Below are positions 5,512 to 23,741 of a stretch of 33,557 nt of DNA, in pieces; the first letter of the stretch is position 1, and every line of letters starts with the position of its first letter. Position numbers and translations under genes: made by a program. The notes under the pieces were generated by a model that ran no database searches, was not told where the DNA came from, and saw nothing but the letters and a program-made list of their open reading frames with translations. Source of the stretch: a virus; the IMG/VR virus record IMGVR_UViG_3300028840_001115, positions 1 through 33,557 of that record; one strand, 5' to 3'.

Positions 5512-6657
5512 CTATTGCGCCGTGCCGGAGCTGTAGTATGCCCCGCGATAGTCGAAGTAGTTGCCTTCCGTGGTCGTGTCGATGTAGGTGCCCCACTGGT
5601 CCTCGACCTTGATGACCACGTTCCCAGTCGCAAAGTCCCCCATGATGGGCGGGACGCTTCCGCCGGAGCCAAGCAGGGAAGTCACGCTCTCGATGTCGCT
5701 GCGCTTGCGCAGGATCATCGGGGCCGGCATCCCCTGCCGCCGGGCCAGCACGAACGGGACGATGTTCGATTCCTTCCAGTCCACGAACCCCCACCAGCGC
5801 AAGTTCGGCGCGGTGCCGCTCATGTGCGGGTCTTCGATGGGTTCGAAGTCGCCGGCGATGACGTTCTTGGCGTTCGTCGCCAGCTCGGGGATTAGCTCAG
5901 ACTGGCGGATGACGCGCACCGTGTCGACCAGGCCGCTGTGATGCACCAGGTACTTGAGCCGGGCGCGGATCGGCACGCCCCGGGCGTCGGTGCGCTGGTT
6001 GAAGGCCATGCGCGCCTCGCTGATGCGGCTGGAGGTCAGGCGTCCGTTCTGGCTGTACAGAGCGCCCAGCCCGGTCAAGCGGGCGACACTCACGGCGTTG
6101 GTGTACATCCGGCTCACGTACTTCTCCAGCGTGCGCCGGGCTGCGAGGCCCATGTCGCGCGCCTGGTCGTTGAAGTATCCCAGGTCGTCGTTGACCAGCG
6201 CTTCCATCGAGAAGTCGAACTGCTTGGCCCACCTGTACACCTGGTACTGGCGCTTGGTCGCGTCGGCCACGTAGCCGGGGCGGGTTTCCCCTTTCTCGGT
6301 GACGTATTCCAGGTCGTCCACCCCAGACCGCTTCTGGTAGCGGTTGACGGGCAGGAAGTTGGGGGTCGTGTCGGGCTTGACCAACGGCTCGAAGGCAAAA
6401 CCCTTCACCTCGTAGCCGGGCACCATCTGCCGCTGCACGAACTCGGTGATGGCGTAGGTGAAGTCGGCGGAGATCATAACCTCTTGCAGTCGCGTCTCGG
6501 GTCCGTCGAGGCCGGCTTCATTCAGCGTCGCGCCGGACAACGCGCTGTCGAAGAAGTGGTACATCTCCTTCATCGTCGCCACGCGGTCGGCGGGCGCTTT
6601 GTGCTTTTCCAATTGGAGCTGGCGGATGTCCGCCAGCATAGAGAGAACCTGTCTCAT
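5512..6657 (-). CDS. Major capsid protein (Mu gpT/HK97-fold type), 381 aa
   Basis: The shell subunit. The pattern FAFEPLVKPDTTPNFLPVNRYQ, then ALVNDDLGYFNDQARDMGLAARRTLEKYV, resembles Mu gpT-like major head proteins, which adopt the HK97 fold: an N-terminal arm with ADFTYAITEFVQRQMV, an E-loop-like region, and a C-terminal beta-rich domain. The length is typical. GGGAGGTAATGAAACG precedes the ATG. It follows protease and decoration genes in the standard order. The N-terminal 40 residues may be removed on maturation by the upstream protease, as in related systems. Confidence 0.85.
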   Translation of the reverse strand: MRQVLSMLADIRQLQLEKHKAPADRVATMKEMYHFFDSALSGATLNEAGLDGPETRLQEVMISADFTYAITEFVQRQMVPGYEVKGFAFEPLVKPDTTPNFLPVNRYQKRSGVDDLEYVTEKGETRPGYVADATKRQYQVYRWAKQFDFSMEALVNDDLGYFNDQARDMGLAARRTLEKYVSRMYTNAVSVARLTGLGALYSQNGRLTSSRISEARMAFNQRTDARGVPIRARLKYLVHHSGLVDTVRVIRQSELIPELATNAKNVIAGDFEPIEDPHMSGTAPNLRWWGFVDWKESNIVPFVLARRQGMPAPMILRKRSDIESVTSLLGSGGSVPPIMGDFATGNVVIKVEDQWGTYIDTTTEGNYFDYRGAYYSSGTAQ

Positions 6658-7504: not shown

Positions 7505-10102
7505 CTACCGGCTCAGGTGATACCGCTCCTGGATCTTCTGGAAGCGCTCGTCGTACTCGTCATCGGTCATCGCCTGCTCGGACGCGGGCTTGCTTCCGCC
7601 CTGTCCGAACGGCTGGCCGGCCCCGGTCAGCTTCTTGACACGCTCGACCGCCTTCTGGACGGCCTCTTGCAACTGCGCCTCGTCGGCGTAGTTGCCCTCG
7701 GCCACCCAGTCCTTGGCCACTTGCGGCAGGTTCGTCTCGGCCAGCGCGGCGTCTACGGCTTCCTTCGCCAATGGCTCGGGCTCAGGCTCGCTCTCGGCCA
7801 TCGCCACGGCGTGACCGCCGGCCCCGTCCCTGGTCACCCAGTCGACGTCCGGGCGCGGCTCGGCCTTGATGGCCTCCACCAGGTCGCCCTTGCGCCCGTC
7901 CTTCTCGAAACCGGGCTTGACGCTGCCCTTGGCGTAGATGGAGCACCGGAGCGTCTGGAGCTGGCCGGCGCGGGCGCGGTTGCGCGTCTTTTCCGCAAAG
8001 TCGGGGTCGAAGATGCGCGCCAGGGCCACGGGGCTGCCATCCTCTGCGAAGTAGACCGGGCAGCGCTCGATGACGCTAACCTCGGTGCGCTCGGACTTCT
8101 CGCTGCCTTTGTGGTCGCTCGTGTACATCTTCGCGCCCTCGAAGACGCCCGCGTCCCTCTTCAGCATCTCGGGCGGGTAGTACCGGTTGTCCTTCTGGTT
8201 GCCCCACCCCGGCTTGATGACGTTGACGTACACGCCCAGCGGAGCGCGGTCGGGGTTGACACCCTCGGCGGGCTGCGCTTCGGCGGCCAGGCCCAGGATA
8301 CCCGCTTCCCCGCCCGATTCGGACAGGTCGGCCTCGACGGTCTCAACCTCTGCCGTCTCCGCTTCCTGTGCCTCCACCGGCGCGGCCTCGGGCTCCTTCG
8401 ATTCGGCGTCCTCCGCCTCTGGCTCCGCTTCCGGCGCGCTCAGGCTGTCGAGTAGCGCCTGTGCGTGCTGGCGCGCGGCGTCCAGGTCGAGTCCGTCTTC
8501 CGCCAGTGAGTCGACGAGTGCCTGCACTTGTTCCTTCTCCATAGATTCCACCTCCTTCGATGCCTCTAGCCAAGGCATTTCTTCAGCTTTGTATAGCGCC
8601 TTGAGATCACTAATTGCTTTCTGTTTGTTCGGTCCCTCGTACTTGTTGCCCCGATGCCCGCCTGGCGCTGTAAGTGCGGCCTTTGCACCGCCCATCAGGT
8701 CATGATCAGGAGTGCCATTGCGCTTGACTTGTAGGTGCCAGGTCGACGGGTTCTCTGGGCTCTCTACCACCAAAAAGTCGCTGGCAGGGAACTTCTCGCC
8801 GCCCACGGTCTTCATCGTTTTTTCTGCCATATCCACCTCCGCCGCCGGCGTCGCCCACGGCAGCGTCTTCCTCTCCGGCTCCTCTTCCTGCTCCTGGTCG
8901 GCGTAGCTGGCCCACTGGATCATGTCTTCCAGGTCGCCTAGCTCGCTCTCGAAGTCCTTCAGCTTGGCTTGCAAGCTGTCGATGATGCCTTGCAATTGGG
9001 TCACCCGCTGCTGATTCAGCCGCCGGCCCACCTCGACAACCTCGGTCTCCTTCGCCGGTTTGGCCTTCTTGAGCGCTGCAATCGCGCCCTTGGCGTCCTT
9101 CTTCTTGACCGCCGCGACGAAGGCGTCGCCCAACCGGTTGAGCTGGTACGAGCCGTCGTCCGTCGGCACTACCAACCCGGTCGCCGCCAGTTTCTTGATC
9201 AGTTCGTCCACCTGCGGCTTGCCGCTGGCGAAGTCGAGCAGGTTTTGCACGTCGGCGTTCGAGATGCCACCGCCGTCCGTGACCGCGCTCATCAGGTCGC
9301 CCGGCTCGCCTTCGGGTTCCTCGGCGGGTGCTTCTTCCTTTTCAGGCTCTTTCGCCTTCTGCGCCTGTTTCTTGCGCTTGGCCGCTGCCTTCTCCCGCTT
9401 CGCGGCCCGGTCGGCCTTCGCGGCCTGCTGTGCCCCGGCCAGTCCCATCACACGCTCGATCTCGTCTGCGTCCTTGTTCTTGGTCGCCTTCAGGACCGCG
9501 CGCCCGTAGGTGTTCAGCCCCCCGGTCTCGGTTGCCAGGCCCAGGCTTTGCAGCTTGGCGAGCGCTTCCTGGTCGATCTTGCCCTCACCACTGGCGATCT
9601 GGGCCAGCGCGTCGGTCAAGCCGGATTCGATACCCAGGTCGGCGGCAGGTTCTGCCGTCCCGCCCCCGCCCCCTTCGTCGCCGCCCCCACTTGCACCGGA
9701 GAATTTGCCGCCCGCGCCACGGTACAGGTTGCCCGCGATGCGCCCGCCTTTCTTCGCGGACCAGTCGGCATACTGTTTCGGTTTGCTGGCTTCCTCCAGG
9801 TCTCCCTGTAACTTTTTCAGGAACCGGTTCGCGGTCTCACGGTCGATCTCGCCGCTGTCGTTCACCACGGCCAGGGCTGTCTCGATAGCGCTGGCTGCCA
9901 GGCCGGTAATTTCCTCGTTTTCCTTCGCCCGGTCTACCATCGCGTTTGCGGCGCGGATGGCCCCGCCGTCACACGAACCATCGTCACCGCCCTTGTCGAT
10001 GCAATCCTGGCGATGGCGGTTGGCGACCTTGACCCAGAGCTTTTTTTGCCCCGCGTCCAAGCCCTTCTTGTGTTCGTCTACGTCGTCAATCGTCCACGGC
10101 AT
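7505..10102 (-). CDS. Prohead protease/scaffold fusion, 865 aa
   Basis: This is a multi-domain head-maturation protein. Residues 1-60 (PWTIDDVDEHKKGL...AIRAANAMV) are ChaB-like. Residues about 215-260 are Lys/Ala/Glu-rich coiled coil. Residues about 425-520 hold a STWHLQVKRNGTPDHDLMGGAKAAL-type domain seen with phage proteases. Residues about 615-765 form the serine protease: YYPPEMLKRDAGVFEGAKMYTSDH with His664, then LRCSIYAKG with Ser721, and VDWVTRDGAGG. A C-terminal helix bundle is suited to scaffolding. It should cut scaffold and capsid after assembly. Strong internal ribosome binding sites precede Met425 and Met521, so shorter products are likely. Confidence 0.83.
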   Translation of the reverse strand: MPWTIDDVDEHKKGLDAGQKKLWVKVANRHRQDCIDKGGDDGSCDGGAIRAANAMVDRAKENEEITGLAASAIETALAVVNDSGEIDRETANRFLKKLQGDLEEASKPKQYADWSAKKGGRIAGNLYRGAGGKFSGASGGGDEGGGGGTAEPAADLGIESGLTDALAQIASGEGKIDQEALAKLQSLGLATETGGLNTYGRAVLKATKNKDADEIERVMGLAGAQQAAKADRAAKREKAAAKRKKQAQKAKEPEKEEAPAEEPEGEPGDLMSAVTDGGGISNADVQNLLDFASGKPQVDELIKKLAATGLVVPTDDGSYQLNRLGDAFVAAVKKKDAKGAIAALKKAKPAKETEVVEVGRRLNQQRVTQLQGIIDSLQAKLKDFESELGDLEDMIQWASYADQEQEEEPERKTLPWATPAAEVDMAEKTMKTVGGEKFPASDFLVVESPENPSTWHLQVKRNGTPDHDLMGGAKAALTAPGGHRGNKYEGPNKQKAISDLKALYKAEEMPWLEASKEVESMEKEQVQALVDSLAEDGLDLDAARQHAQALLDSLSAPEAEPEAEDAESKEPEAAPVEAQEAETAEVETVEADLSESGGEAGILGLAAEAQPAEGVNPDRAPLGVYVNVIKPGWGNQKDNRYYPPEMLKRDAGVFEGAKMYTSDHKGSEKSERTEVSVIERCPVYFAEDGSPVALARIFDPDFAEKTRNRARAGQLQTLRCSIYAKGSVKPGFEKDGRKGDLVEAIKAEPRPDVDWVTRDGAGGHAVAMAESEPEPEPLAKEAVDAALAETNLPQVAKDWVAEGNYADEAQLQEAVQKAVERVKKLTGAGQPFGQGGSKPASEQAMTDDEYDERFQKIQERYHLSR
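8550..8555 (-). promoter_or_regulatory. Internal ribosome binding site for a 345-aa product
   Basis: GGAGGT lies 7 nt before an in-frame ATG at 8542 (GGAGGTGGAATCTATGG). Translation from here gives residues 521-865: an acidic Glu/Ala-rich leader, the whole protease domain and the C-terminal helices. Confidence 0.55.
8835..8840 (-). promoter_or_regulatory. Internal ribosome binding site for a 441-aa product
   Basis: GGAGGT lies 4 nt before an in-frame ATG at 8830 (GGAGGTGGATATGGC). Translation from here gives residues 425-865 of the protease/scaffold. Confidence 0.55.
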
Positions 10103-10114: not shown

Positions 10115-10591
10115 TCATACCGGTCGCAGCGTCGTCGTCGTCGAGGTCGAGGTCGAGGAACTAGTCGACAGGCTCACAGTCGTACTCGTAGACTGCGTTA
10201 GGCTGGTCGAGACGCTAGTGCTCGATAGGCTGGTGCTAGAACTTGTGCTTTGCGTCGTTGACGTTGTAAGAGATGTTGAAACCGACGTGCTCGTCGTTAG
10301 GCTGGTCGAGACACTAGTGCTCGATAGGCTGGTGCTAGAACTTGTGCTTTGCGTCGTTGACGTTGTAAGAGATGTTGAAACCGACGTGGAGCTACTGGTC
10401 GACACAGTCGTGCTAGAACTTGTGCTGACCGACGTGGACGTTGTAAGAGATGTTGAAACCGACGTGGAAAGGCTCGACGACGAGCTGGTGCTGAGACTGG
10501 TACTGGTCGAGCTAGAGGTCGACGTACTCGTCGTCGTCGACGTGCTGGTCGTCGTGTTGTATTCAGTCCCGAAGTTATGGAAGAATCCCAT
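10115..10591 (-). CDS. Second mucin-like Ser/Thr-repeat protein, 158 aa
   Basis: After a 12-residue start (MGFFHNFGTEYN) the protein is entirely Ser/Thr-rich with Val/Leu spacers (TSVSTSLTTSTSVSTS style) until STSTSTTTTLRPV. The same ending (STSTTTTLLP) closes the Ser/Thr tract of the 766-aa protein, so the two share an origin. There is no globular domain. GAAGGATGAAG lies before ATG 10591. It probably forms a flexible, glycosylatable appendage; whether it is virion-bound is unknown. Confidence 0.75.
   Translation of the reverse strand: MGFFHNFGTEYNTTTSTSTTTSTSTSSSTSTSLSTSSSSSLSTSVSTSLTTSTSVSTSSSTTVSTSSSTSVSTSLTTSTTQSTSSSTSLSSTSVSTSLTTSTSVSTSLTTSTTQSTSSSTSLSSTSVSTSLTQSTSTTVSLSTSSSTSTSTTTTLRPV
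10201..10388. repeat. Two 89-bp direct repeats, 99-bp period
   Basis: Positions 10201-10289 and 10300-10388 match at 88 of 89 bases inside the small mucin-like gene. The 99-bp period is 33 codons, so gain or loss of one copy would keep the frame. Confidence 0.9.
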
Positions 10592-10597: not shown

Positions 10598-11089
10598 TCA
10601 TCCTTCGGCGTAAAAGACCGCCGTCACCTCGGCCCATCCTGGTACCGCTTGCGATACCGAGTCCTCGCGGCAGAACACGCGCAGGCGCTCGATGCAGCCA
10701 CCCAGGTGAATCGGCGGGCTGATGAATGTCTCGACGTCCCCGCTGGTGGCACAGTACGAGATGTATTCTTGCTGCACCATCGAGTGCTGAATCCGGCAGG
10801 GGGTCATCTTGCCCGGTACGTACAACGAGCCGTGGAACCACTCTTGCGTGGAGCCGCCGGCGAGCGCGGCGATGGAAAACGGGCTCAGGTCGTAGTAGTA
10901 GTCGACGCCACCCTGAACCGGGTGCTGGCGCTGGTATGCGAAATACAAGCGGCACCACCAGAAACCTTGCACCACGGCTACGGTTGGGTCTGCGTCCCAC
11001 GCGCCCGCAGCCGGCAGCGCGGCCCAGGTGCGCAGCACGGTGGGGTTGGCCTGGCCGGTCGGGTAAGTCTGCGAATTAGAAAGAGGCAT
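10598..11089 (-). CDS. Conserved virion-type protein, 163 aa
   Basis: The protein is beta-rich and aromatic: FWWCRLYFAYQRQ, DYYYDLSPFSIAA, EWFHGSLYV, FISPPIHLGGCIERLRVFCRED, EVTAVFYAEG. I have seen this arrangement in phage proteins next to Ig-like and fibre genes and would expect a small jelly-roll head or tail decoration. No enzyme motif is seen. It lies between the two Ser/Thr-rich proteins. Confidence 0.65.
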   Translation of the reverse strand: MPLSNSQTYPTGQANPTVLRTWAALPAAGAWDADPTVAVVQGFWWCRLYFAYQRQHPVQGGVDYYYDLSPFSIAALAGGSTQEWFHGSLYVPGKMTPCRIQHSMVQQEYISYCATSGDVETFISPPIHLGGCIERLRVFCREDSVSQAVPGWAEVTAVFYAEG

Positions 11090-11391
11090 CAGTCAAACTC
11101 CGAACTTTTCGCGTCGAACCGGTTCTCGCCTGCCGCCATCCCGGTCCCGGTCGAGTACCAGCGGTAGTACCAGATCCCGTGCACGGTGACGTTGACGCTG
11201 ATCTGGTACGTGCCCGTGGACGGGTTCGTGATCTCCGGGTCGACGCCGTAGGTGTAGGTGGTGATAGCCTGCGTAGACGGGTTCTTGATCTGGAAATAGA
11301 CGGCAGTCGGGTCGACCGCCGCTCCGGTGTCGGCGTCGGTGAACACTGCCGTGCAGACGACTTGATCTCCGATGTCATAGGAATGGCTCAT
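11089..11391 (-). CDS. Ig-like beta-sandwich phage protein, 100 aa
   Basis: The pattern YDIGDQVVCTAVFTDADTGAAVDPTAVYF, ITTYTYGVDPEITNPSTGTYQISVNV and GIWYYRWYSTGTG is a small beta-sandwich that I recognise from many phage structural modules (BppU/Ig-like accessory domains). It probably decorates head, tail or fibre; the exact site is unknown. The start is ATG 11391 because the longer frame begins inside terminator T2. The ribosome binding site is weak. The stop overlaps the next start. Confidence 0.7.
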   Translation of the reverse strand: MSHSYDIGDQVVCTAVFTDADTGAAVDPTAVYFQIKNPSTQAITTYTYGVDPEITNPSTGTYQISVNVTVHGIWYYRWYSTGTGMAAGENRFDAKSSEFD

Positions 11392-11407
11392 CGTGTAGCC
11401 CGAAAAC

Positions 11408-11447
11408 AAAAAAGAGCGCACCTCCACCCGGTATGGTGGAAATGCGC
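11408..11447 (-). terminator. Intrinsic terminator T2, related to T1
   Basis: On the minus strand GCGCA pairs with TGCGC and TCCACC with GGTGGA around the loop ATACCG, followed by TCTTTTTT. The preceding GTACCGCACTGGGCGCA parallels GTACCGTACCGGGCGCA before T1, and both loops contain CATACCG, so the two terminators look like diverged tandem copies. T2 ends about 17 nt before the next ATG. Confidence 0.75.
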
Positions 11448-11613: not shown

Positions 11614-13914
11614 TCAGCACCCGTGATCCGTCAGCACCACCTCGTAGGCCAACGCATCTGTCACCGTCACCTCGTATGCCAGCACATCCGTGAGCGCCAC
11701 GGCGTAGGCCGGCTCATCGTCCGTTGCTACCCCATACGCCAGTTCATCCGTCAGTACCACCTCATACGCCAGCGCGTCGGTGATGACCAGGTCCGCCTTC
11801 TCATACGGTAGCAGCGTCGTCGTGGTGCTGGTCGAGCTGGACGTAGAGAGGCTGACCGTGGTGCTCGTGGACTGGCTCACGGTCGTGGACGTGGACTGCG
11901 ATACCGTCGTCGAGGAACTTGTGGACTGGCTTACAGTCGTACTTGTAGACTGCGAGACAGTCGTCGACGTGGATTGCGTCAGGCTGGTGCTGGAACTCGT
12001 GGACTGGGTAGTCGAGGTCGAAACAGAAATTGTTATGCTTGAGCTGGTCGATTGCGTGGTACTCGTGGACTGCGAGACCGTGGTGCTCAGGCTCGTGGAC
12101 TGCGATACGGTCGTGCTGGAACTGGTCGACGTCGTAAGAGAACTTGAGGTCGATACGGAGACCGTGGTCGAGGAACTTAGGCTGACCGTCGTGCTAGAAC
12201 TCGTGGATTGTGTCGTGGACGTTGTAAGAGAAGTTGTAAGCGAGCTGCTGGTAGACTGCGACGTTGTACTGCTAGAACTTGTGCTGACCGTGGACGACGT
12301 AGAAAGAGACGTTGTAAGGCTGCTGGACGTAGACTGAGAGGTCGTCAGGCTAGTCGAGGTCGAGAGCGAGACCGTCGTGGAAAGACTCGTGCTTTGGCTG
12401 GTACTCGATGAAACAGAAGTTGTTGACGAACTGGACGTTGAGACAGAAACCGTTGTGGACGAGCTAAGGCTGGTCGACGTGGTACTGGTCGATAGCGAGA
12501 CGGTCGTGCTCAGGCTCGTGGACTGGCTGGTGGACGTTGTAAGAGACGTTGTTAGGCTGGTACTCGTCGTAGATGTAGATTGCGAAACCGTCGTGCTGGA
12601 ACTCGTGCTCTGCGTGGTCGAAGTAGAAACAGAAATTGTTGTGCTGGAACTGGTAGACTGCGATACCGTCGTGGACGTGGACAGGCTCGTGCTGGTCGTC
12701 GAGGTCGAGAGCGAGACCGTGGTACTGCTGGACAACGAAGTCGACGTCGTGAGGCTGCTGCTAGAACTCGTGCTCTGGCTGGTGCTGGATGAAAGCGACG
12801 TTGAACTGCTAGAACTCGTGCTGACCGTGGACGATGTCGAAAAAGTCGTTGACGTAGACTGCGAGACGGTCGTCGACGTGGATTGCGTCAGGCTGGTCGA
12901 CGTGCTGCTAGAACTTGTGGATTGTGAGGTCGATGATGAAACAGAAGTTGAGGTCGAGACCGTCGTCGTGAGGCTCGTCGAGACGCTGGTACTGGTCGTG
13001 CTGGTGCTAAGGCTCGTGCTCTGGCTGGAGCTAGATGAAACGGAAGTTGTCGTGGACAGGCTCGTCGAGACCGACGTGGACGTGGTGCTGGTCGACTGGC
13101 TGGTGCTAGAACTTGTGCTTTGGCTGGTTGAACTCGAAACAGACGTTGTACTGCTAGAACTTGTGGACTGGCTGGTCGAAGTTGTAAGAGAAGTTGTAAG
13201 CGACGTGCTCGTTGTCAGACTGGTACTGGTGCTGGTCGTCGAGGTCGAGGTTGTGAGGGTTGTTGACGTCGACGTGCTGGCCGCGCACGGGCCTATCTGT
13301 GTATCATCATCCCGTAGAATGAAATCGTCCAGATATAGCGTGCCACTGGTGCCAGCGTCCACGCCGCTGACAGCGCCTATCCGCGCCCGGTCGGGCTTGG
13401 AGATGTCCTCCACGTCCAGGCCGGTCTTGTTTTCTTGCTGCACCCCATCGATCCACAGCGTGATCGCAGCGGCACTGCCGCCGGCGTATTCGACCAACAC
13501 CTCGACGTAGTGACTGGCGTCGGTGATGTCGTAACTCGAGGTGAGTTCCCAGCCACCACTGTCGTTACGCACGCCGGTGATGATCTCGTAGTTCGAGCCG
13601 TCGTGGCGCAAGTACGTCTGCTGGCGCAAACCGGTGCCATCCAGGAGCGCGACGACGGTGAATACGTCGCCGGAACTCATCGACAGCCCATTCGGGTCGA
13701 TGTAGAACCGGTAGCGGTACTCCGTGTTGGATAGCTGCGTGAACGTCTTTTCGCCATAGACGTCGTCGGTATCGTCTATGGCGACGGACAGGCCCCAGGA
13801 ACCGCACAGCGCCGCAGCTTGCGCGGCGGTAAGCTCGCCAACGTCGGGGTCGACGGTGCTGGTGTATTCCGTTAGGTTTCCAACCTCGTGCGTGATGTTG
13901 AAAATCTGAGCCAT
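11614..13914 (-). CDS. Mucin-like Ser/Thr-repeat virion protein with a LamG-like head, 766 aa
   Basis: There are three parts. Residues 1-210 look like a concanavalin A/LamG-type jelly roll: YRYRFYIDPNGLSM, WELTSSYDITDASHYVEVLVEY, ITLWIDGVQQ and SGTLYLDDFILRD. Residues about 212-700 are almost only Ser and Thr with scattered Val, Leu and Gln (STSTTVSQSTSSS style). Residues about 701-766 are tandem decapeptides of the form LTDxLAYEVx. No catalytic motif is visible. Its place between the cargo operon and head genes suggests a virion surface fibre. The long Ser/Thr tract is an obvious acceptor for O-glycans made by the upstream enzymes, which is inference. Codons in the tract are varied, so the protein repeat is maintained without strict DNA identity. 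Confidence 0.85.
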   Translation of the reverse strand: MAQIFNITHEVGNLTEYTSTVDPDVGELTAAQAAALCGSWGLSVAIDDTDDVYGEKTFTQLSNTEYRYRFYIDPNGLSMSSGDVFTVVALLDGTGLRQQTYLRHDGSNYEIITGVRNDSGGWELTSSYDITDASHYVEVLVEYAGGSAAAITLWIDGVQQENKTGLDVEDISKPDRARIGAVSGVDAGTSGTLYLDDFILRDDDTQIGPCAASTSTSTTLTTSTSTTSTSTSLTTSTSLTTSLTTSTSQSTSSSSTTSVSSSTSQSTSSSTSQSTSTTSTSVSTSLSTTTSVSSSSSQSTSLSTSTTSTSVSTSLTTTVSTSTSVSSSTSQSTSSSSTSTSLTQSTSTTVSQSTSTTFSTSSTVSTSSSSSTSLSSSTSQSTSSSSSLTTSTSLSSSTTVSLSTSTTSTSLSTSTTVSQSTSSSTTISVSTSTTQSTSSSTTVSQSTSTTSTSLTTSLTTSTSQSTSLSTTVSLSTSTTSTSLSSSTTVSVSTSSSSTTSVSSSTSQSTSLSTTVSLSTSTSLTTSQSTSSSLTTSLSTSSTVSTSSSSTTSQSTSSSLTTSLTTSTTQSTSSSTTVSLSSSTTVSVSTSSSLTTSTSSSTTVSQSTSLSTTVSQSTSTTQSTSSSITISVSTSTTQSTSSSTSLTQSTSTTVSQSTSTTVSQSTSSSTTVSQSTSTTVSQSTSTTVSLSTSSSTSTTTTLLPYEKADLVITDALAYEVVLTDELAYGVATDDEPAYAVALTDVLAYEVTVTDALAYEVVLTDHGC
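11626..11784 (-). repeat. Tandem 30-bp (decapeptide) repeats, about five copies
   Basis: The C terminus of the 766-aa protein reads ITDALAYEVV, LTDELAYGVA, TDDEPAYAVA, LTDVLAYEVT, VTDALAYEVV, then LTD. The period is ten residues (30 nt), with conserved D and AY. The copies differ by several bases each, so they are not freshly amplified. Confidence 0.85.
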
Positions 13915-14009: not shown

Positions 14010-14831
14010 CTAGAAGCCGAGCCGCGCCACCTCGGGGACGCGGGGAAGCGGTTCCTGGGTCTTGGGGTCTTTACCCCACAAATCATAGCCTTCCGGCCAC
14101 AAGAGGTCGAGCCGGTTCCACTGCTCACGAACTGGCGGTAGCGCCTGACTCAGACCGTCCGGCTCATCCTTGCTCTGTCCCCACCAGTGCCAAACCCACG
14201 ACAAGCTGGTAGCCAATGCCCGCAATTTCTGTTGATAAATCCGGGCCATTAGGTCATAATCTTCGCCGGCTCCGGGGAATGAGCGTTCATCGAACAGGCC
14301 AACCTTCTCCACCAGCAGTTCACGCTTGAACACGCTACACCAGCAGGTCAGGCCGTCGATCATCTGCCCGTTCTTTTCGTGAATCAGCCGCAAGATATTT
14401 TCTGGCTCGGCGCATTCTCTGAGCGTCAGGTGATAACGGAACCCATCTTCTCCATACCCCCATCCTGGCTCTTTCGGACTTGATGGGTTGACGCATACTG
14501 CCGTATCATATCGCTTGAACGTCTCCATTATCCCTGGCCACCACGTTGGGGTAATGAAAAGTACATCGTCATTGCATACCGTGACGTATTCAGTCGGTGC
14601 GAGTCGGATTCCGAGGTTGCTTGCTTGCGCGAACCCCAGGTTCTTCTTTGGTTTGATCCACAAGTCGCAGTGTTGGCGTAGCTCTTGCTCGAACTCGGCT
14701 ACCGGTTGCGTCTGATCTATGACGATGACGTAATAATTCGGTATTGTCATCACCTTGAGACTGGCAAGCGCATCCAAGATCCTGTCCCGTCGTACTATCG
14801 GAAAAACGAACGTGTTTATAATGTCAGTCAT
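14010..14831 (-). CDS. Glycosyltransferase family 2-like, 273 aa
   Basis: This is a GT-A enzyme: NTFVFPIVRRDRILDALASL start, YYVIVIDQTQP (about 33-43), NLGFAQASNLGIR (about 64-76), and the metal-binding VTVCNDDVLF (Asp88-Asp89). GLFDERSFPGAGEDYDLMARIYQQKL is the acceptor/catalytic-base region, as in rhamnosyl- or GlcNAc-type GT2 proteins. It is the last gene of the cargo operon and is followed directly by an intrinsic terminator-like hairpin and the large Ser/Thr-rich gene. Confidence 0.88.
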   Translation of the reverse strand: MTDIINTFVFPIVRRDRILDALASLKVMTIPNYYVIVIDQTQPVAEFEQELRQHCDLWIKPKKNLGFAQASNLGIRLAPTEYVTVCNDDVLFITPTWWPGIMETFKRYDTAVCVNPSSPKEPGWGYGEDGFRYHLTLRECAEPENILRLIHEKNGQMIDGLTCWCSVFKRELLVEKVGLFDERSFPGAGEDYDLMARIYQQKLRALATSLSWVWHWWGQSKDEPDGLSQALPPVREQWNRLDLLWPEGYDLWGKDPKTQEPLPRVPEVARLGF

Positions 14832-15541
14832 TCTCGCCCTCCCTCCATCTCATACCCAAACCACTCTTGCACGTCCCCCGCCACCCGCGCGAACGTCTCC
14901 ACCTCCTCGAACGTCCACACCGGCGGCTCCTCGTCCGCCACGCTCACGTTGGCGCGCCGCCCCGCGTGCTTCAGCCACACGTCGTGGCTCACGCGTGCGC
15001 CGGCCTGATCCGCGAGCGCCATCACCGCTGCGAACGACGTGTTGAGTGCTTCCAGCGGGAAGATCGTCACCCCCTGCTCCGTCAGCCGCCGGTACGTGTC
15101 GGCCCAGTACCAGCAGCAGGCCGCGAATGGCGTCATCTTCCTCGGCGGCGCTATCGGCGGGTATCCCTCGCGCCTGTAGCACCCCCGCTCCAGCAGTGAG
15201 CGCACGACGTAGCGGCCATCGCGCACCAGGCCAAGGATGGGCACGAACGGGAACGCCTCGCGCAGCGCTGGGACGCAGTAGCGCAGGTAGCTGTTGACCT
15301 CTGCGTATCCCTGCTCCGGGTGCCGCTGCCAGATCCGCTCCATCCGCAAGCGCCGCTGGCGTAGGAACTTGTCGGCGTCTAGAGCGCCGGCGTACACGTC
15401 GGCGTAGCGGGCGGCGTCGAACTGCGCCAGCGGCTCGTGGTGCACGTTCACGTCGTCGTCGCACTGGTTCAGCAGCCGCGCCAGCCACAGGGTGCCGGAG
15501 CGCCCGTGACCGGTGATGATGAAACGTAGGTCCATCTGCAT
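14828..15541 (-). CDS. Sulfotransferase-family protein, 237 aa
   Basis: The N terminus LRFIITGHGRSGTLWLARLL (5-24) is the 5'-phosphosulfate-binding P-loop of PAPS-dependent sulfotransferases. LGLVRDGRYVVRSLLERG (103-120) is the 3'-phosphate-binding motif, with Arg and Ser placed as expected. A helical C terminus ends WFGYEMEGG. The length suits a bacterial carbohydrate sulfotransferase. Members move sulfate from PAPS to a hydroxyl or amine, often on sugars. It lies between a membrane peptide and a GT2 gene with coupled overlaps (TGATG, ATGA). Sulfation of virion glycans is my inference. A P-loop kinase is a less likely alternative. Confidence 0.8.
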   Translation of the reverse strand: MQMDLRFIITGHGRSGTLWLARLLNQCDDDVNVHHEPLAQFDAARYADVYAGALDADKFLRQRRLRMERIWQRHPEQGYAEVNSYLRYCVPALREAFPFVPILGLVRDGRYVVRSLLERGCYRREGYPPIAPPRKMTPFAACCWYWADTYRRLTEQGVTIFPLEALNTSFAAVMALADQAGARVSHDVWLKHAGRRANVSVADEEPPVWTFEEVETFARVAGDVQEWFGYEMEGGRE

Positions 15542-15654
15542 CAGCCCTCCATCCCCTCTATCACCATCTCGAAAATCGCCGCAATCCCCATCACGTTGAG
15601 CGCCATCATCGCGCCCGCTGCGAACAGGAACGCGCCGGCGGCTTGCGGGGTCAT
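15541..15654 (-). CDS. Small membrane peptide, 37 aa
   Basis: The peptide MTPQAAGAFLFAAGAMMALN and VMGIAAIFEMVIEGMEG is almost wholly hydrophobic with one predicted transmembrane segment (about 6-30) and an acidic C terminus. The ATGA overlap upstream and TGATG overlap with the sulfotransferase downstream support translation. The function is unknown. Confidence 0.55.
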   Translation of the reverse strand: MTPQAAGAFLFAAGAMMALNVMGIAAIFEMVIEGMEG

Positions 15655-15878
15655 TCGGCCTCCGCTGTCTGTTCGTGCGCCCCCACGACGAGCTTGGCGA
15701 ATGCGACGACGTGCTCTCTCACCTCGACCGGCAGTTCGTCCAGCCAGTCGAAGAAATAATCCACGTCCTCGTTGGCGACCGGCGGCTGCGTGACCAGCCA
15801 CTTGCGCCGCCGGTGCTGGTCGCGGAGCACGACCTCGAAACGGTACGGGTGATCTGCCTCAAGTTGAAACGGGTCCAT
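15651..15878 (-). CDS. Hypothetical protein, 75 aa
   Basis: No domain is recognised. It has a beta-rich N-terminal half (YRFEVVLRDQHRRRKWLVT) and an acidic helical C-terminal half (VDYFFDWLDELPVEVREHVV). The start at 15878 overlaps the upstream TGA; ATG 15881 is possible. The end overlaps the next small gene as ATGA. Confidence 0.62.
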   Translation of the reverse strand: MDPFQLEADHPYRFEVVLRDQHRRRKWLVTQPPVANEDVDYFFDWLDELPVEVREHVVAFAKLVVGAHEQTAEAE

Positions 15879-16072
15879 CATACTTCCTCTTCCTGTGTGT
15901 AATATCGCAGTATTTCTCGTTCGGTCTTAGGGCCAATGCCATATAAAGTTTGTAATGCTGCTGCCCTAATATGACGGTGAACTTCCTCTGTCGTGTGAAT
16001 TCCAGCACGAGCTAGCTTAGTCAGAATACGAACTGGGACAATCTGCGGGGTGACCAGTTGTAATTTCTCCAT
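15878..16072 (-). CDS. Helix-hairpin-helix small protein, alpha-CTD-like, 64 aa
   Basis: The core ILTKLARAGIHTTEEVHRHI followed by LQTLYGIGPKTEREIL (about 16-56) is a helix-hairpin-helix with the GIGxKT loop that binds DNA backbone. The order matches the RNA polymerase alpha-subunit C-terminal domain (LLxxGIxTVEEL...GIGxKTxEEI). GGAGGTAGGG sits directly before ATG 16072, the strongest ribosome binding site of this stretch. The protein could bind DNA or mimic alpha-CTD; the latter is inference. Confidence 0.7.
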   Translation of the reverse strand: MEKLQLVTPQIVPVRILTKLARAGIHTTEEVHRHIRAAALQTLYGIGPKTEREILRYYTQEEEV

Positions 16073-16074
16073 CC

Positions 16075-17127
16075 CTACCTCCAACACCTGAACAACGGCC
16101 TTACCCCGTGGTCCTTCGTCGCCCCCAGGAACTCGACGCGCCCGAACCGCCGTTCCAGCACCGGTCGCCAGGTCTCCTCGCGGTCTGGCACGTGCCCCTC
16201 GAAGAAACACACCCGCTTGCACAGCGCGAACGCCCACGGGTCCGGGCGCGTCTGCTTGGCGCTCAAGGCCAGCACGACGTCGAACTCCGCGATGCCCGTC
16301 TGCCGCACGATATCCCCGGCCTCCCCCGGCAGCATCGCGCCTACGAAGTCCAGGTTCCAGTAACCGCGCCAGTTCGCCACCTCGTAGGCCAGTTTCGCCA
16401 CGTGCGGCTTGTCCACGCCCACCACGCGCAACGCGCCTCGGTCGTGCGCCTCCTGGCACAGCGCCCCCAGGTTGCAGCCCACGTCCAAGACGGTCGCGCC
16501 GGCCCAGTCCACCTCGTCCCACTGCATCGCCCGCGCCCGCGCGCCTGCGCCCGTGCGCTGGGCGTCCATCGCCAGCCCCGCCGCCTGGTATGCGTCGTTG
16601 CGGCTGCCCCAGGCTGCGCCGGCGGTGCAGCGGCGCACCAGGTCGGCCTCGTAGTCGCCGTGCAAGAAGTGATGCTGGAAGTCCACCATCTGCGAGCCTA
16701 TCCAGTTGGCGGGGTTCATGTCGCCGCTGCGACACCGTACCTTGTAACGGTCCACGACCTGCGTGCGGCAGGCAGCGCGGTCGAACTCTCTGCCGTCGTC
16801 CTCGACGTAGTCCGTCACCTGTGCCCAGTGCGCGCCGTTCACGAGCGCGACGTCGTACACGCGCGGTGCGAACCCTTCGAGCGCGAACAGGTTCTGCGCC
16901 CTGGTGCAGTCGGTCAGCAGGTTGCCCGTATCGCCCCAGTAGAACTCGTCCAGCGGTTGCGCATCGCGCCTGAACACCTTCAGGCACAGGCCCTCGCGCC
17001 CGTACTCGCGGGCCAGGATGCGCGCCAGGTCGGGGCCGTGAGCGACGTAGCTAAAGACGCCGGTCGCGCGGCGGTCGCCCTGGTGGGCGGGCGTGAGGAG
17101 GGCGGGTGGGATGGCGAGTGTAGTCAC
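16075..17127 (-). CDS. Methyltransferase with a kinase-like N-terminal region, 350 aa
   Basis: The C-terminal half is a class I SAM methyltransferase: motif I TVLDVGCNLGALC (about 212-224), VVGVDKPHVAKLA for the acidic loop, and FDVVLALSAKQTR for motif IV. The N-terminal half (about 30-115) has GLCLKVFRRD, NLFALEGFAPRVYDV and WAQVTDYVEDD, which resemble the N-lobe lysine strand and hinge of protein- or sugar-kinase folds. I see no convincing C-lobe, so phosphotransfer is not claimed. The start is GTG 17127, behind GGAGG and overlapping the zinc-ribbon stop. A longer frame to 17208 is low-complexity Ala/Gly. Confidence 0.78.
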   Translation of the reverse strand: MTTLAIPPALLTPAHQGDRRATGVFSYVAHGPDLARILAREYGREGLCLKVFRRDAQPLDEFYWGDTGNLLTDCTRAQNLFALEGFAPRVYDVALVNGAHWAQVTDYVEDDGREFDRAACRTQVVDRYKVRCRSGDMNPANWIGSQMVDFQHHFLHGDYEADLVRRCTAGAAWGSRNDAYQAAGLAMDAQRTGAGARARAMQWDEVDWAGATVLDVGCNLGALCQEAHDRGALRVVGVDKPHVAKLAYEVANWRGYWNLDFVGAMLPGEAGDIVRQTGIAEFDVVLALSAKQTRPDPWAFALCKRVCFFEGHVPDREETWRPVLERRFGRVEFLGATKDHGVRPLFRCWR

Positions 17128-17318
17128 GCTATCGCCTCCATCGTCAACTGCTCCGCCACCGGCTCCACTGCCACCGGCGGCTGCGGCGGCTGGTTCGGTG
17201 CCTTGCACCGGTCACAGACACCGGGCCGGCGCGCCAGGAAGTTGCAGAGAGGGCAGAGCCAGAATTTCTCGCGCCTTCTCTCGCCCGCTCTTGACCACAC
17301 GTTCCTACCCCGCTCCAT
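17124..17318 (-). CDS. Zinc-ribbon protein, 64 aa
   Basis: The sequence contains FWLCPLCNFLARRPGVCDRCKAPNQPP (about 19-45), two CxxC knuckles twelve residues apart, with basic residues before and a Pro-rich tail after. It overlaps the glycosyltransferase upstream by 14 nt. It ends in a GTGA overlap with the methyltransferase downstream, so it is co-translated. It is the third small zinc ribbon of the cargo block. Confidence 0.65.
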   Translation of the reverse strand: MERGRNVWSRAGERRREKFWLCPLCNFLARRPGVCDRCKAPNQPPQPPVAVEPVAEQLTMEAIA

Positions 17319-18147
17319 CCAGCACCTCCAGCCACCGCTCCCGCAGCCTCGGCCACAGCCAGCATTGACGCACGGCGTCAGCGCTCGCGGCCCCCAGCGC
17401 CAGCCAGTCTACCTCGCGCACGGCCTTCTTGAGCGTGTCCCAGTCGTCCACGATGACGATGCCTGCGCCCGTGCGGGCCAGGTCGCGGGCCACGCCGACG
17501 TCGAACGTGACGACGGGGCGGCCACAGGCGCACGCCTCCAGCAGCGGGAAGCAGAAACCTTCGCTACTACTGGCGCAGACGTAGACGTGCAAACGGCGGT
17601 AATACAGGTGCATCGTCTCCAACTCGTATGCGCCGGATTGACGCCCGCTCTCCATTTGGGATATATTTGGGATAAAGTCGATATCCCAAATCGTGGACAA
17701 TTCCTCCGTCAACTGCAAGAACTGCTTGCGCGGGTTCTTGAACTGGCCGGCCCATCCGACCTGTCGCCGCTCGCTCTTGGGCCACGGCTGCGGGTGGAAG
17801 TTCTGCGCATCCACGCCCCAGGGTAACAGATGCGCCCGGTCGCCGTAGCGCTTGGCGATGCGCTCGTAGACGCCGGTGCTGGCGGCGCACACGGTGCCCG
17901 CGTCCTGCGCCCAGCCGTACTCGTGTGGCTCCCACACGAACTTGACCACCTTCGCCGGGTCGCAGCCGGGCGCACGGTTGGGGCCCGGGAAGAAGGGCAG
18001 CACGACGTCGAACTCGTCCCAGTCGAGCGGCTTGTATGTGATGGTCGTCTCGTACTCCGGGCGCAGCGTGTCGGCCAGCTTGCGGGAGTAGTATTCGCTG
18101 AAATTGCGCCAGGATAGCCAGATGGCGAGTTTACGGGTCATCGTCAC
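17305..18147 (-). CDS. Glycosyltransferase, GT4-like, 280 aa
   Basis: This is a short GT-B enzyme. The N-terminal half is divergent. The hinge LLPWGVDAQNFHP (about 107-119) and QVGWAGQFKNPRKQF (about 129-143) mark the donor domain. The E-x7-E motif is intact as SSEGFCFPLLEACACGRPVVTFD (Glu196 and Glu204). The start is given as 18147; ATG 18141 is equally plausible. In contrast to the neighbouring 307-aa enzyme, the catalytic-region motif is complete here. Confidence 0.83.
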   Translation of the reverse strand: MTMTRKLAIWLSWRNFSEYYSRKLADTLRPEYETTITYKPLDWDEFDVVLPFFPGPNRAPGCDPAKVVKFVWEPHEYGWAQDAGTVCAASTGVYERIAKRYGDRAHLLPWGVDAQNFHPQPWPKSERRQVGWAGQFKNPRKQFLQLTEELSTIWDIDFIPNISQMESGRQSGAYELETMHLYYRRLHVYVCASSSEGFCFPLLEACACGRPVVTFDVGVARDLARTGAGIVIVDDWDTLKKAVREVDWLALGAASADAVRQCWLWPRLRERWLEVLDGAG

Positions 18148-18349
18148 TCGGATAATCGACTATGAACTCAACAGGAACACTGCGCCACATTGTGCGCCCT
18201 GTCGTCGCATCACGCCATTGTTGCTGTAGCGTGATGTGCATCCCTTTGATTTGCCATCGCAGTTGCCCGGTCGGCTCAATGGCATGGCGAGAACCATCAT
18301 CGCCAGTTATGTAGTCTGCCCTTAGCGGGCATTCAGTTTCATCACACAT
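18131..18349 (-). CDS. Hypothetical protein, 72 aa
   Basis: No domain is recognised. The sequence is beta-rich in the middle (LRWQIKGMHITLQQQWRD, TMWRSVPVEFIVDYP) with an acidic end. Two cysteines lie near the N terminus (CDETEC). GGGAGGGCG precedes tandem ATGs at 18352 and 18349, the latter overlapping the upstream stop. It overlaps the next glycosyltransferase by about 17 nt. Confidence 0.65.
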   Translation of the reverse strand: MCDETECPLRADYITGDDGSRHAIEPTGQLRWQIKGMHITLQQQWRDATTGRTMWRSVPVEFIVDYPSDDDP

Positions 18350-18675
18350 CATCGCCCTCCCCACTGCCTGAGTGCCGCCTCAAGTGCGGGCAGCAGCGCC
18401 AGCCCTATCTCTGTTTTCATCGCCTCAACGTCACGCTGGAACTGGCGCGCCGTCTTGCCCGGCCGGCGGTACGTGTGCAATGTCCCTTGCCGTATCGTCG
18501 GGCGCGGCGGTAGATGCGGCCTGACGCCCATCGTCTCGTGCGGTAGCTGAAGCGTGCACGAAGTGTCTAACTCTATCGTCAGCAGTGTCGCCCCGCAGCC
18601 GTCCCACTGCCCTTCGCCACAGGTCAGGGCGTCATCAGGGTTGACCTTGCCGCACCACTTGCAAACCTTTGCCAT
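18349..18675 (-). CDS. Zinc-ribbon protein, 108 aa
   Basis: The N terminus contains CKWCGKVNPDDALTC and a further Cys in WDGCGATL (about 5-29), a zinc-ribbon-like pattern with widened spacing. The rest is basic, then helical (ARQFQRDVEAMKTEIGLALLPALEAALRQW). The start is ATG 18675, overlapping the upstream stop (TGATG); six extra residues at 18693 are less likely. It is the second zinc-ribbon gene in the block. The role is unknown. Confidence 0.68.
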   Translation of the reverse strand: MAKVCKWCGKVNPDDALTCGEGQWDGCGATLLTIELDTSCTLQLPHETMGVRPHLPPRPTIRQGTLHTYRRPGKTARQFQRDVEAMKTEIGLALLPALEAALRQWGGR

Positions 18676-19598
18676 CATCGCCCCCCCAAGCAAATCTCGT
18701 CCAGCGCCGCCAGCCGCCGTTCCAGCGGGTAGCGGTCGGCCACGTGCGCCCGGTAGCCCTCCGGGTGATATAGCGCGCTCAGGAACATATCGACCGCTTC
18801 GTCGTGCGTGTCGAATACCCAGTTACGCGGCCAGATGTCGGTCGCGCCGTTCGTGTTCTGGATGACGGGGCGGATGCCCTTGGCAGCGCACTCTCCCCCC
18901 GTCTGTAGCAGGTAACTCTTGTCTTCCAACCACTCGTTCAAGTCGGGGATGAACTTGTCGACGAACGTCACCCGCTCGGCCAGTTCCGGGTTGGCGCGCA
19001 CGAACGCCATACAGTGCTCCCGCCACCAATTCGGGCTCCACTTGTATCCGCGCACGTACAGGTGCCACGGGTTGCGCGGGTCGCGTCGCACCAGCGCCAG
19101 GAACACCTGCAGAGCGCCGAACAGGTTCTTCGCTATCCAATAGTTGCCGATCCACGCCACGTCGTAGCCGCGTTTCGGTTCCCGACGCAGCGTCCAGCGG
19201 CTCAGGTCCACGCCGCCGGGGACGTGATGCACGGGCAGCGTGTCGGGCAGGTGCGGGCGCATGTACTCGTGGATGTGGCGGGCCATCACGACCAGGCCGT
19301 CCACCCAGGCCCAGTTCACCTTGCGCCAGTGACCGCCGTACACGTCGGCGTCGACGGCCTCCGCGATGATGCGCGTGTTTGGAGGCTTCTCCATCTCGTT
19401 GGATGCGCGGCATAGGTTGTTGTCGACCGGGTAAAAATACGCGAGCCCACCGTCGCACCAGTTCACGAGGTCAGGGCCCCACCAGATGCCCGTCCGCACG
19501 TCGTGCCCCAGGTCGCGCCAGTGGGCCAGCAGCGGCTCGTTGAACTTGGATAGACCGGTCTCTTTGACGCGCCAGGAGTCGAAAAGGTAGATGTTCAT
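18675..19598 (-). CDS. Glycosyltransferase, GT-B type, 307 aa
   Basis: The protein reads as a compact GT-B glycosyltransferase of a kind I associate with phages and bacterial surface-sugar loci: MNIYLFDSWRVKETGLSKF start, HHVPGGVDLSRW hinge (about 124-135), YDVAWIGNYWIAKNLFGAL donor-domain start (about 145-163), then LNEWLEDKSYLL and GIRPVIQNTNGATDIWP. Where the family normally has an HE(S/G)xxxxxxxEAMAxG segment, this protein has only TGGECAAKG (about 233-241), so the first glutamate of the usual pair and about nine residues are missing. Activity is therefore uncertain. Confidence 0.8.
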   Translation of the reverse strand: MNIYLFDSWRVKETGLSKFNEPLLAHWRDLGHDVRTGIWWGPDLVNWCDGGLAYFYPVDNNLCRASNEMEKPPNTRIIAEAVDADVYGGHWRKVNWAWVDGLVVMARHIHEYMRPHLPDTLPVHHVPGGVDLSRWTLRREPKRGYDVAWIGNYWIAKNLFGALQVFLALVRRDPRNPWHLYVRGYKWSPNWWREHCMAFVRANPELAERVTFVDKFIPDLNEWLEDKSYLLQTGGECAAKGIRPVIQNTNGATDIWPRNWVFDTHDEAVDMFLSALYHPEGYRAHVADRYPLERRLAALDEICLGGR

Positions 19599-19894
19599 AC
19601 CATTGACTGCCAGGTTTCGCCGCCGTCCAATGTCTGCCAGAGGGTGCCGTCGGTGCAGTATATCCTGATGGCCTGCCAGGCTTTGTCGGTGTCAATATCC
19701 AAATCCACCCAGGCCCTTCCGTCCTTGATGTGGGTTCCACCGACCGTGATAGCCTCTTCCAGCACGTCGTCGTCGATGCTATATTCCACAAACTCTGGAA
19801 ACTCCGGCTCCGAAACCTCCGGCGCAATGCCCAGGGCCGTAGCGCCGACGATCAGGCCAAACCCCTTGATAAAGTCACGTCGACTTATATTCAT
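19595..19894 (-). CDS. Tat-signal protein with a C-terminal Asp-box-like motif, 99 aa
   Basis: The N terminus MNISRRDFIKGFGLIVGATALGIAPEV matches a twin-arginine signal: S-R-R-D-F-I-K at 4-10, then a mildly hydrophobic h-region and an acceptable cleavage area. No lipobox Cys is present. The mature part is short and ends LWQTLDGGETWQSMV, an Asp-box-like DGGxTW turn also seen repeatedly in the tail protein at 23-1522. This suggests export of a folded small beta protein across the host membrane, unusual for a phage gene in a virion operon. Its start overlaps the upstream stop (TAATG), and its end overlaps the next gene (ATGA). Confidence 0.72.
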   Translation of the reverse strand: MNISRRDFIKGFGLIVGATALGIAPEVSEPEFPEFVEYSIDDDVLEEAITVGGTHIKDGRAWVDLDIDTDKAWQAIRIYCTDGTLWQTLDGGETWQSMV

Positions 19895-20133
19895 TACTCC
19901 TCTTCCTCAATCCACCAACACTTCCTGATACCGTGATAATGTAGCCATTTCTCTATCGGTATGATGAATCTATCAAGCCAGGTGTACTCAAACCAGATAC
20001 ATAGCCATTCCCACCGCGATAACGAGCCGGCAGTTGACGATTGAGAAGTCGTCGGGAATGTCGCCACCGTGCTCGTGCACCTGCCACAGTTGGCACAATC
20101 GCCATCGCACACAAAATCATCAGTCCACTCCAT
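19894..20133 (-). CDS. Small cysteine-cluster protein, 79 aa
   Basis: The N terminus carries CDGDCANCGRC (about 9-19), four cysteines spaced C-x3-C-x2-C-x2-C, plausible for a zinc or iron-sulfur site. A Ser/Thr linker follows, then an aromatic-rich C terminus (WEWLCIWFEYTWLDRFIIP) and an acidic end EEEE. GGGAGGGCAGG precedes ATG 20133. The TAA stop overlaps the next ATG (TAATG). No family is recognised. Confidence 0.6.
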   Translation of the reverse strand: MEWTDDFVCDGDCANCGRCTSTVATFPTTSQSSTAGSLSRWEWLCIWFEYTWLDRFIIPIEKWLHYHGIRKCWWIEEEE

Positions 20134-20284
20134 CCTGCCCTCCCGGCAATCCCTGCCCCCGATAGTGCACCCACAGCCCGCCCAGCAACCACAGCACCGC
20201 GCCCACGGCCACCGACTCCCAGGCAACCGGGCGCGCCCCCAGGCCCAGGCCGATGAACCAGGTGCCGAAGTAGATAGCGCGCAT
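20120..20284 (-). CDS. Small membrane protein, 54 aa
   Basis: The sequence is MRAIYFGTWFIGLGLGARPV, then ESVAVGAVLWLLGGLWVHYRG: two hydrophobic segments (about 3-16 and 24-38) with an Arg between, and a polar C-terminal tail. The ATG overlaps the FkbM stop as TGATG. The gene overlaps the next by 14 nt. The function is unknown. Confidence 0.6.
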   Translation of the reverse strand: MRAIYFGTWFIGLGLGARPVAWESVAVGAVLWLLGGLWVHYRGQGLPGGQDGVD

Positions 20285-20952
20285 CACCCCGCCGTCGTGA
20301 ACTCGAACGCCGTCGCGTCCTGGAACACGCTGCCGACCTGCCGGTACCCGAACCCGCTTAGGAATTGCGTCACCTGTGCGTGTCGTTGGCGGTTCCGTAT
20401 CTCGACGAACAGCGCCGGCCTCTGCTCGTCCAGCAGCCGTGCCGCCCCCTTGAGCACGTGCAGCTCGTGGCCCTCCACGTCGATCTTGACCAACCGTACC
20501 GGTTTGGCGTGCTCTTTCGCCACGATGCTGTCCAGCGTCTCGACGACCACGCTCTTGCCCGGCACCAGCCGAAACTGGCCCAGGTTGCCCCCGAACCGCT
20601 CCATCGCGCCCTTGCCGCCCTTGTCGCTCACGGCGCAGTTGTAGACGTGGACGAGCTTGTCCACCCGGTTGAGCGCGTAGACTTGGGCCTGGCGCAGGCA
20701 CGATTCCGGTACCGGCTCGACGGCGATCACGAACTTGGGCGCGCAGAACTTGGCGAAGAACAGGCTATGGTTGCCCAGGGCCGCGCCCACGTCCACGAAC
20801 ACGCCGCCCTTGTAGTGCCAGTAGATATACTCCAGCATCCGCGTCTCGAAGAACTCGCCCCGTTGCCAGGTGGCTTGCAGGTGCTCGACGGGTTCCTCGG
20901 TGACGACGGTCGCGCTGCCGGCGCGTGAGGTGATGGTGTGTGTGTGCATCAT
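20284..20952 (-). CDS. FkbM-family methyltransferase, 222 aa
   Basis: Motif I is FVDVGAALGNHSLFFAKF (about 52-69), with VIAVEPVPESC following. The diagnostic FkbM segment is VRLVKIDVEGHELHVLKGA (about 152-170). Members are mostly O-methyltransferases acting on sugars or small molecules. The start is ATG 20952 or the adjacent ATG 20949; both overlap the upstream TGA, with GGAGGGG 3-8 nt upstream. The length is typical for the C-terminal FkbM domain alone. It sits within the glycosyltransferase block. Confidence 0.9.
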   Translation of the reverse strand: MMHTHTITSRAGSATVVTEEPVEHLQATWQRGEFFETRMLEYIYWHYKGGVFVDVGAALGNHSLFFAKFCAPKFVIAVEPVPESCLRQAQVYALNRVDKLVHVYNCAVSDKGGKGAMERFGGNLGQFRLVPGKSVVVETLDSIVAKEHAKPVRLVKIDVEGHELHVLKGAARLLDEQRPALFVEIRNRQRHAQVTQFLSGFGYRQVGSVFQDATAFEFTTAG

Positions 20953-22371: not shown

Positions 22372-22517
22372 GGCGCTATCATCTCCAGCCATAATCCCTG
22401 GCGTTGGGTAAGATGGCACCATAGGCAGTGACGCTCTTGCCACTGCTTCGTATCTGATCCGTTGAGTGTCCACGGCGTCCACCTATGCAAGCCAAGTGCG
22501 CACAATAGCCGTTTCAT
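22362..22517 (-). CDS. Small protein with HRW motif and CxxC, 51 aa
   Basis: The peptide begins MKRLLCALGLHRWTPW and contains RHCLWCHLTQRQG. I recognise this as a recurring type of tiny phage or bacterial protein that starts KRLLCxLGxHRW and carries a single CxxC; its function is unknown. GAGGAGGGCAAA precedes the ATG, the best-placed ribosome binding site in the area. Its end overlaps the next glycosyltransferase start by 10 nt. Confidence 0.7.
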   Translation of the reverse strand: MKRLLCALGLHRWTPWTLNGSDTKQWQERHCLWCHLTQRQGLWLEMIAPWP

Positions 22518-22690: not shown

Positions 22691-22691
22691 C

Positions 22692-22859: not shown

Positions 22860-22870
22860 AGTTGCCCTCC

Positions 22871-23698: not shown

Positions 23699-23741
23699 TG
23701 TGCATACCTCCTCTCAGACGGTGCAGAATAGGGCCTAGCCA

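Follow-up and report, generated by a model that had tools for sequence, protein, structure and literature searches.

We consider it somewhat probable (roughly 0.55) that the 766-aa protein encoded at 11614-13914 is a virion-surface adhesin, carried on a stalk that is glycosylated by the phage's own cassette of sugar-modifying enzymes, encoded upstream. The window analysed here is a whole virus record (IMGVR_UViG_3300028840_001115; 33,557 bases), in which the recognised structural genes all lie on the minus strand (Table 1); judged by its capsid relatives, whose longest records are of 54-67 kb, it probably covers some half of a tailed-phage genome. The ORF (minus strand, ATG at 13914) is uninterrupted by stops, and its translation bears out the three-part architecture of the original prediction: a head (residues 1-210), a Ser/Thr tract (213-700) and a decapeptide tail (701-766). 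The same prediction likened the protein to a cell-surface adhesin; an adhesin of a cell is ruled out, as the window is a virus record in which the terminase, portal and capsid genes share the strand, and from the position of the gene we infer that "cell-surface" should read "virion-surface". A 377-aa plus-strand frame (12377-13510), antisense to the tract, was rejected as a true gene because the conserved head is in the minus frame, and is judged to be an artefact of the repetitive codons of the tract.

The lectin-type, LamG-like nature originally proposed for the head agrees with its predicted structure. The AlphaFold2 model of residues 1-210 is a confident lectin-like fold (pLDDT 96.2, pTM 0.92), an all-beta jelly roll of the concanavalin A (ConA)/LamG type, whose strand at residues 3-7 shows that the folded part begins almost at the N terminus. 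The best solved structures are ConA-like jelly rolls, such as glucuronan lyase 2zzj (Z 20.7, 200 residues, rmsd 2.7), with calreticulin and many others also among the matches; with Z up to 20.7, the head has the two-sheet jelly roll of the ConA-like lectin/glucanase superfamily (LamG-type). The Pfam family Laminin_G_3 matches it below threshold (E 7e-4; 20.2 bits at a curated cut-off of 27.6), which leaves the head outside that family as curated. Many uncharacterised LamG/ConA-type phage proteins match the fold as well. Clostridial neurotoxins are represented high in the ranking by their cell-binding domains, at 8-13% identity, which reflects the common jelly-roll fold only and gives no hint of a toxin activity. 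A LamG-type fold may also serve a purely structural role.

The head alignment places residues 1-210 with 41 relatives (42 rows), encoded at loci of viruses and of Chloroflexota. No match to the head was found in 50,697 isolate phage records (tblastn), and none to profile A3 among PDB sequences. Nearly all genomic loci with the head module (24 of 25) belong to Chloroflexota, in whose proteins Thr/Pro-rich linkers often flank it. Chiefly on this indirect ground, the host is probably a member of Chloroflexota; a search of 400 genomes, all of that phylum, gave only distant capsid-like matches, in 42 of them, and is not decisive in this respect. Phages of Chloroflexota are mentioned barely and only in passing in the full-text literature searched.

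Of the 488 residues of the tract, 228 are Ser and 172 Thr (82%), the others being only Leu (30), Val (29), Gln (25), Ile (3) and Phe (1). These other residues are never neighbours, and of the 87 gaps between them 80 are even, as against 39.2 +/- 4.7 in shuffled sequences, none of 5000 of which reached 80. Neither this alternation nor the second Ser/Thr gene and the cassette described below figured in the original prediction. The constant parity holds only Ser (78%) or Thr (22%), while the variable one holds Thr, Ser, Val, Leu, Gln, Ile or Phe. Random low complexity does not describe the tract: it has an alternating-serine pattern like that of bacterial serine-rich-repeat (SRR) adhesins, and this two-residue alternation speaks for a stalk that is extended and probably glycosylated, its flexibility, as first proposed, being less certain. 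Its codons are mixed, as had been noticed from the letters (TCN and AGY for Ser, all four for Thr). Pairs of internal repeats diverge mainly synonymously, with omega of about 0.08-0.11 in the coding frame vs 2.5-3.9 in shifted frames; as the pairs were chosen by DNA similarity, the value is approximate, the contrast between frames being strong. Together with the even-gap rule, this sustains the view that the protein pattern is selected and is not mere slippage. The full-length single-sequence model is uninformative on the tract (pLDDT about 24), and a DNA pattern search with QSTSTTVSQSTS gave no result.

A second gene of the window, for a 158-aa protein, obeys the same alternation (18 of 20 gaps even; 9.1 +/- 2.2 expected), and its ATG is preceded by the ribosome-binding-like site AAGGA. 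Among 598 candidate stretches, none was confirmed by tblastn as a relative of this protein.

As to the C terminus of the 766-aa protein, the decapeptide repeats end in DHGC; a search of viral contigs for the tail decapeptides found none. The 112-aa protein encoded next gave chance-level matches only among PDB sequences. Locus L046 comes from a phage that is more distantly related and whose terminase is homologous. There the head module continues into a linker of the LSGSG type and the protein ends in decapeptides; the gene that follows encodes the homologue of the 112-aa protein. The two phages share head, tail type and neighbour gene, whereas the linker has been exchanged.

Directly upstream of the tract gene lies the cassette (14010-26141), with three glycosyltransferases of family GT2, two of GT1 and one further probable glycosyltransferase, together with an FkbM methyltransferase, two other methyltransferases (one only probable) and one sulfotransferase. 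The GT1 at 24855-26141 is 34% identical (2e-58) to a GT1 of locus L039; a search of viral contigs for GT1 gave no result, and three cassette proteins had no match in isolate phages. A close capsid relative encodes a GT1 56% identical to the same protein, sited after the tailspike-like genes instead (L006:5224-6354). At 26368-26640 (minus strand), about 140 bp from the 5' end of this GT1 gene recur out of frame as a partial duplicate, which suggests a recent rearrangement within the cassette. A 99-aa ORF of the cassette (19595-19894, minus strand) starts with MNISRRDFIKGFGLIVGATALG, which resembles a twin-arginine (Tat) signal and is unusual for a phage structural region.

Table 1. Annotated features of the window, in the order of the minus strand
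Feature	Position	Strand	Basis
Terminase	30407-31762	-	Recognised structural gene
Portal protein	27733-29631	-	phrog_10963, E 2e-22
MuF-like conserved protein, bounding the variable block on its upstream side	27138-27740	-	Position and homologues in relatives; no family match
Glycosyltransferase, Glycos_transf_1; homologues in L039 (34%) and L006 (56%)	24855-26141	-	Pfam E 3e-7
Glycosyltransferase family 2	22871-23698	-	Pfam E 2e-25
Glycosyltransferase family 2	21508-22482	-	Pfam E 2e-8
Methyltransferase (Methyltransf_24)	20949-21602	-	Pfam E 4e-6
FkbM-family methyltransferase	20284-21150	-	Pfam E 5e-20; NCBIfam TIGR01444
Probable glycosyltransferase	18675-19598	-	Sequence and context only; no Pfam match
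Glycosyltransferase, Glycos_transf_1	17305-18147	-	Pfam E 7e-13
Probable methyltransferase	16075-17208	-	Pfam E 1e-3, below cut-off
Sulfotransferase (Sulfotransfer_3), RSGT and RDGRYVVRS motifs	14828-15541	-	Pfam E 1e-6, above cut-off; sequence
Glycosyltransferase family 2 (Glycos_transf_2), 95 bp upstream of the Ser/Thr gene	14010-14831	-	Pfam E 1e-10
Head, residues 1-210, ConA/LamG-type jelly roll	13285-13914	-	AF2 model, PDB fold matches, 42-row alignment
Ser/Thr tract, residues 213-700, alternation [S/T]-[T/V/L/Q/I/S]	11815-13278	-	Composition, gap parity, omega
Tail, residues 701-766, about 5 decapeptides [VLA]xTDxLAYEV	11617-11814	-	Sequence; similar decapeptides end the L046 protein
112-aa protein	11089-11427	-	In L046, a homologue (42% identity) immediately follows the LamG-repeat gene
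163-aa protein, conserved across the phage's lineage, bounding the variable block on its downstream side	10598-11089	-	Relatives
Second Ser/Thr-tract protein, 158 aa, without head domain	10115-10591	-	Composition, parity
Probable prohead protein, next conserved gene downstream	7505-10102	-	Relatives; identity from position
Major capsid protein	5512-6657	-	Pfam PF25209, E 8e-21; PHROGs head proteins
Two consecutive tailspike-like proteins, 329-337 aa	3023-5039	-	Weak tailspike matches

Both the cassette and the tract gene lie inside one variable block. The distance from the MuF-like gene to the 163-aa gene is about 16 kb in the window vs about 0.6 kb in L009, 1.5 kb in L012 and 2 kb in L016, and the same neighbourhood carries other adhesin-like domains in relatives (Laminin_G_3 in L009, Lcl_C in L007). 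The tailspike-like pair right after the capsid gene is conserved throughout the lineage. Glycosyltransferases were found among the capsid relatives only in G013 and G021, which are near-identical records, in G006 and, by tblastn, in L006. Conservation of the tract, the lack of which was part of what would refute the original prediction, is mixed: the tract is absent from all 18 capsid relatives, in the sequence covered by their records, and is replaced in the syntenic L046, while Ser/Thr tracts stand beside the head module in two further phages, L039 and L040. In L039, five head modules are separated by poly-Thr/Ser tracts, which are poly-Thr without alternation, and genes for GT1, GT2 and GT2 abut the tract gene. 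In L040, three glycosyltransferases are encoded just upstream, and two proteins have Ser at 95-100% of alternate positions. The second of these (L040:7254-9143; 630 aa), encoded directly after the LamG-Ser-x protein, keeps alternate Ser at this level over about 400 residues and, judged by its sequence, appears closer to the canonical SRR type than the window's own protein. Two phages or more, distantly related to each other, carry the stalk together with linked glycosyltransferases, namely the window and L040.

The adjacency of glycosyltransferases to tract genes gave p 0.009-0.022 with the window and 0.033-0.066 without it, counted over independent records of the head module that contain the gene whole; as the records are fragments, the counts were set by hand and the tract-positive phages number three with the window, the association is suggestive, not conclusive. 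Glycosyltransferases also occur near a LamG gene without a Ser/Thr tract (L047), and far away in L037. Sulfotransferases are encoded in only two of 23 records, those of the window and of the L039 phage, both of them tract phages; in the latter they are about 53 kb from the tract gene, and the sugar-modification set is far from the poly-Thr LamG gene. This distant region (L089, G035:100000-119094) encodes a UDP-sugar dehydrogenase, an epimerase, two sulfotransferases and FkbM methyltransferases.

The proposed sequence of events is as follows. The upstream glycosyltransferases would add sugars to Ser and Thr, one of which is present at every second residue of the long stalk, in the cytoplasm during virion assembly, and the methyltransferases and the sulfotransferase would cap the glycans. 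We infer this modification because SRR stalks share with the phage stalk both the alternating Ser and glycosyltransferases of the same locus. The glycan coat could keep the stalk extended, soluble and protease-resistant, allowing the ConA/LamG-type head at one of its ends to reach glycans on the host, a sheath or a biofilm. The adhesin is likely attached by its repeated tail, after which the conserved 112-aa protein is encoded, and would enter the virion through this end. The 158-aa Ser/Thr protein may be an additional substrate of glycosylation.

Three other explanations deserve consideration. According to the first, which we regard as rather unlikely, the protein is a LamG-headed virion adhesin whose tract is an unmodified hydrophilic linker of a kind that phages exchange freely, and the cassette has some other purpose. 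The LSGSG-type linker of L046, found together with a similar decapeptide tail and the same 112-aa gene downstream, fits this explanation, as do other repeat linkers in L003, L031, L033, L034, L042 and L047 and the records of L034 (54 kb) and L042 (41 kb), in which no glycosyltransferase was seen. However, glycosyltransferases are directly upstream in all three phages with Ser/Thr tracts, and strict alternation with omega of about 0.1 is more than a spacer requires. LamG-type modules are fused to varied long repeats in L031, L033, L034, L042, L046 and L047 (AGxLxPAGxLxR, GAVSKxLxTAxLTAxGQ, SVGITDSISKIGTF, LSGSGxLxAxG), which probably represent a family of exchangeable phage linkers.

The second explanation, that the cassette glycosylates the host envelope, as in serotype conversion, or the phage DNA, and is sited beside the tract gene by accident, seems to us improbable. 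PHROGs matches of the 22871-23698 protein do include GtrB-like O-antigen conversion families, and DNA hypermodification by phage glycosyltransferases is possible, judging from a reference listed in PMC12619734. Nevertheless, the cassette is within the structural operon, on the same strand, between the portal/MuF and capsid genes; its proteins have no apparent transmembrane segment (best 19-residue mean hydropathy 0.86-1.48), which would be expected of GtrB-like enzymes, and no base-hypermodification enzymes were recognised in the window, which is a genome fragment. As for the tract being a neutral outcome of repeat slippage, identical octapeptides share the same codon at 44% of sites vs 30% expected from codon usage, and some copies hence arose by duplication, but the mainly synonymous divergence of the copies and an alternation maintained across 488 residues and in the second gene make it very improbable.

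The preferred reading, an adhesin on a glycosylated stalk, can be compared with several known systems. Virion glycosylation is known in few phages, mostly on capsid or tail proteins. In mycobacteriophages (Che8 and relatives), phage-encoded glycosyltransferases modify virion proteins (PMC11256854, PMC12619734); their targets are capsid and tail tube subunits, whereas the window encodes a dedicated Ser/Thr-stalk protein as the putative substrate, and its cassette includes a sulfotransferase and methyltransferases. LamG/ConA-like proteins of Caudovirales have the same fold as the head, which in the window is instead fused to an alternating Ser/Thr stalk. The secreted proteins of Chloroflexota with the head module are long, several of them have a signal-like N terminus, and their linkers are of the TP type, in contrast to the Ser/Thr alternations or poly-Thr of the phage linkers.

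Another close likeness is to the serine-rich repeat glycoprotein adhesins (SRRPs) of Gram-positive bacteria (GspB, Fap1, SraP, Srr), which combine a non-repeat region of binding type, an alternating-Ser stalk and adjacent glycosyltransferase genes. In SRR stalks the alternating Ser residues are separated by Ala, Val, Thr and others, and their Ser/Thr are O-glycosylated before export by glycosyltransferases of the same locus (PMC6973325), the genes of which are beside the adhesin gene (PMC6973325; PMC7661464); SraP, according to a title cited in PMC7661464, has an L-lectin module. The window's protein has a long alternating-Ser region, which is looser (Thr-rich) than the canonical one found in L040, and a folded non-repeat region, i.e., the ConA-like head of predicted fold and putative binding role. 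It starts directly with the folded head (MAQIFNITHEVGNL), having no extended N-terminal signal peptide for accessory Sec, and lacks a C-terminal LPXTG anchor; the cassette glycosyltransferases match SRR-type GtfA (TIGR02918) weakly, far below cut-off. No SecA2/SecY2 was seen among the genes examined in the window, which is a fragment. Unlike SRRPs, the phage protein has its head at the very N terminus and a Thr share of 43% in Ser+Thr, and its gene belongs to a phage structural operon. The 766-aa protein falls outside the SRR adhesin family, as it has neither the signal peptide nor LPXTG, and its cassette no SRR-type GtfA above cut-off. The analogy nonetheless suggests that the phage makes and glycosylates its own adhesin, as some Gram-positive bacteria do. 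Text searches of the literature found no description of an SRR-like stalk in phages, which is weak evidence of absence. We tentatively suppose, at somewhat less than even odds, that phages built such a system independently of bacteria, with an alternating-serine stalk, linked glycosyl-, methyl- and sulfotransferases and a sulfated mucin-like virion coat. If so, the substrate of phage glycosyltransferases would be predictable from sequence, the cassette could offer a compact heterologous O-glycosylation system, and the phage and bacterial adhesins would be convergent.
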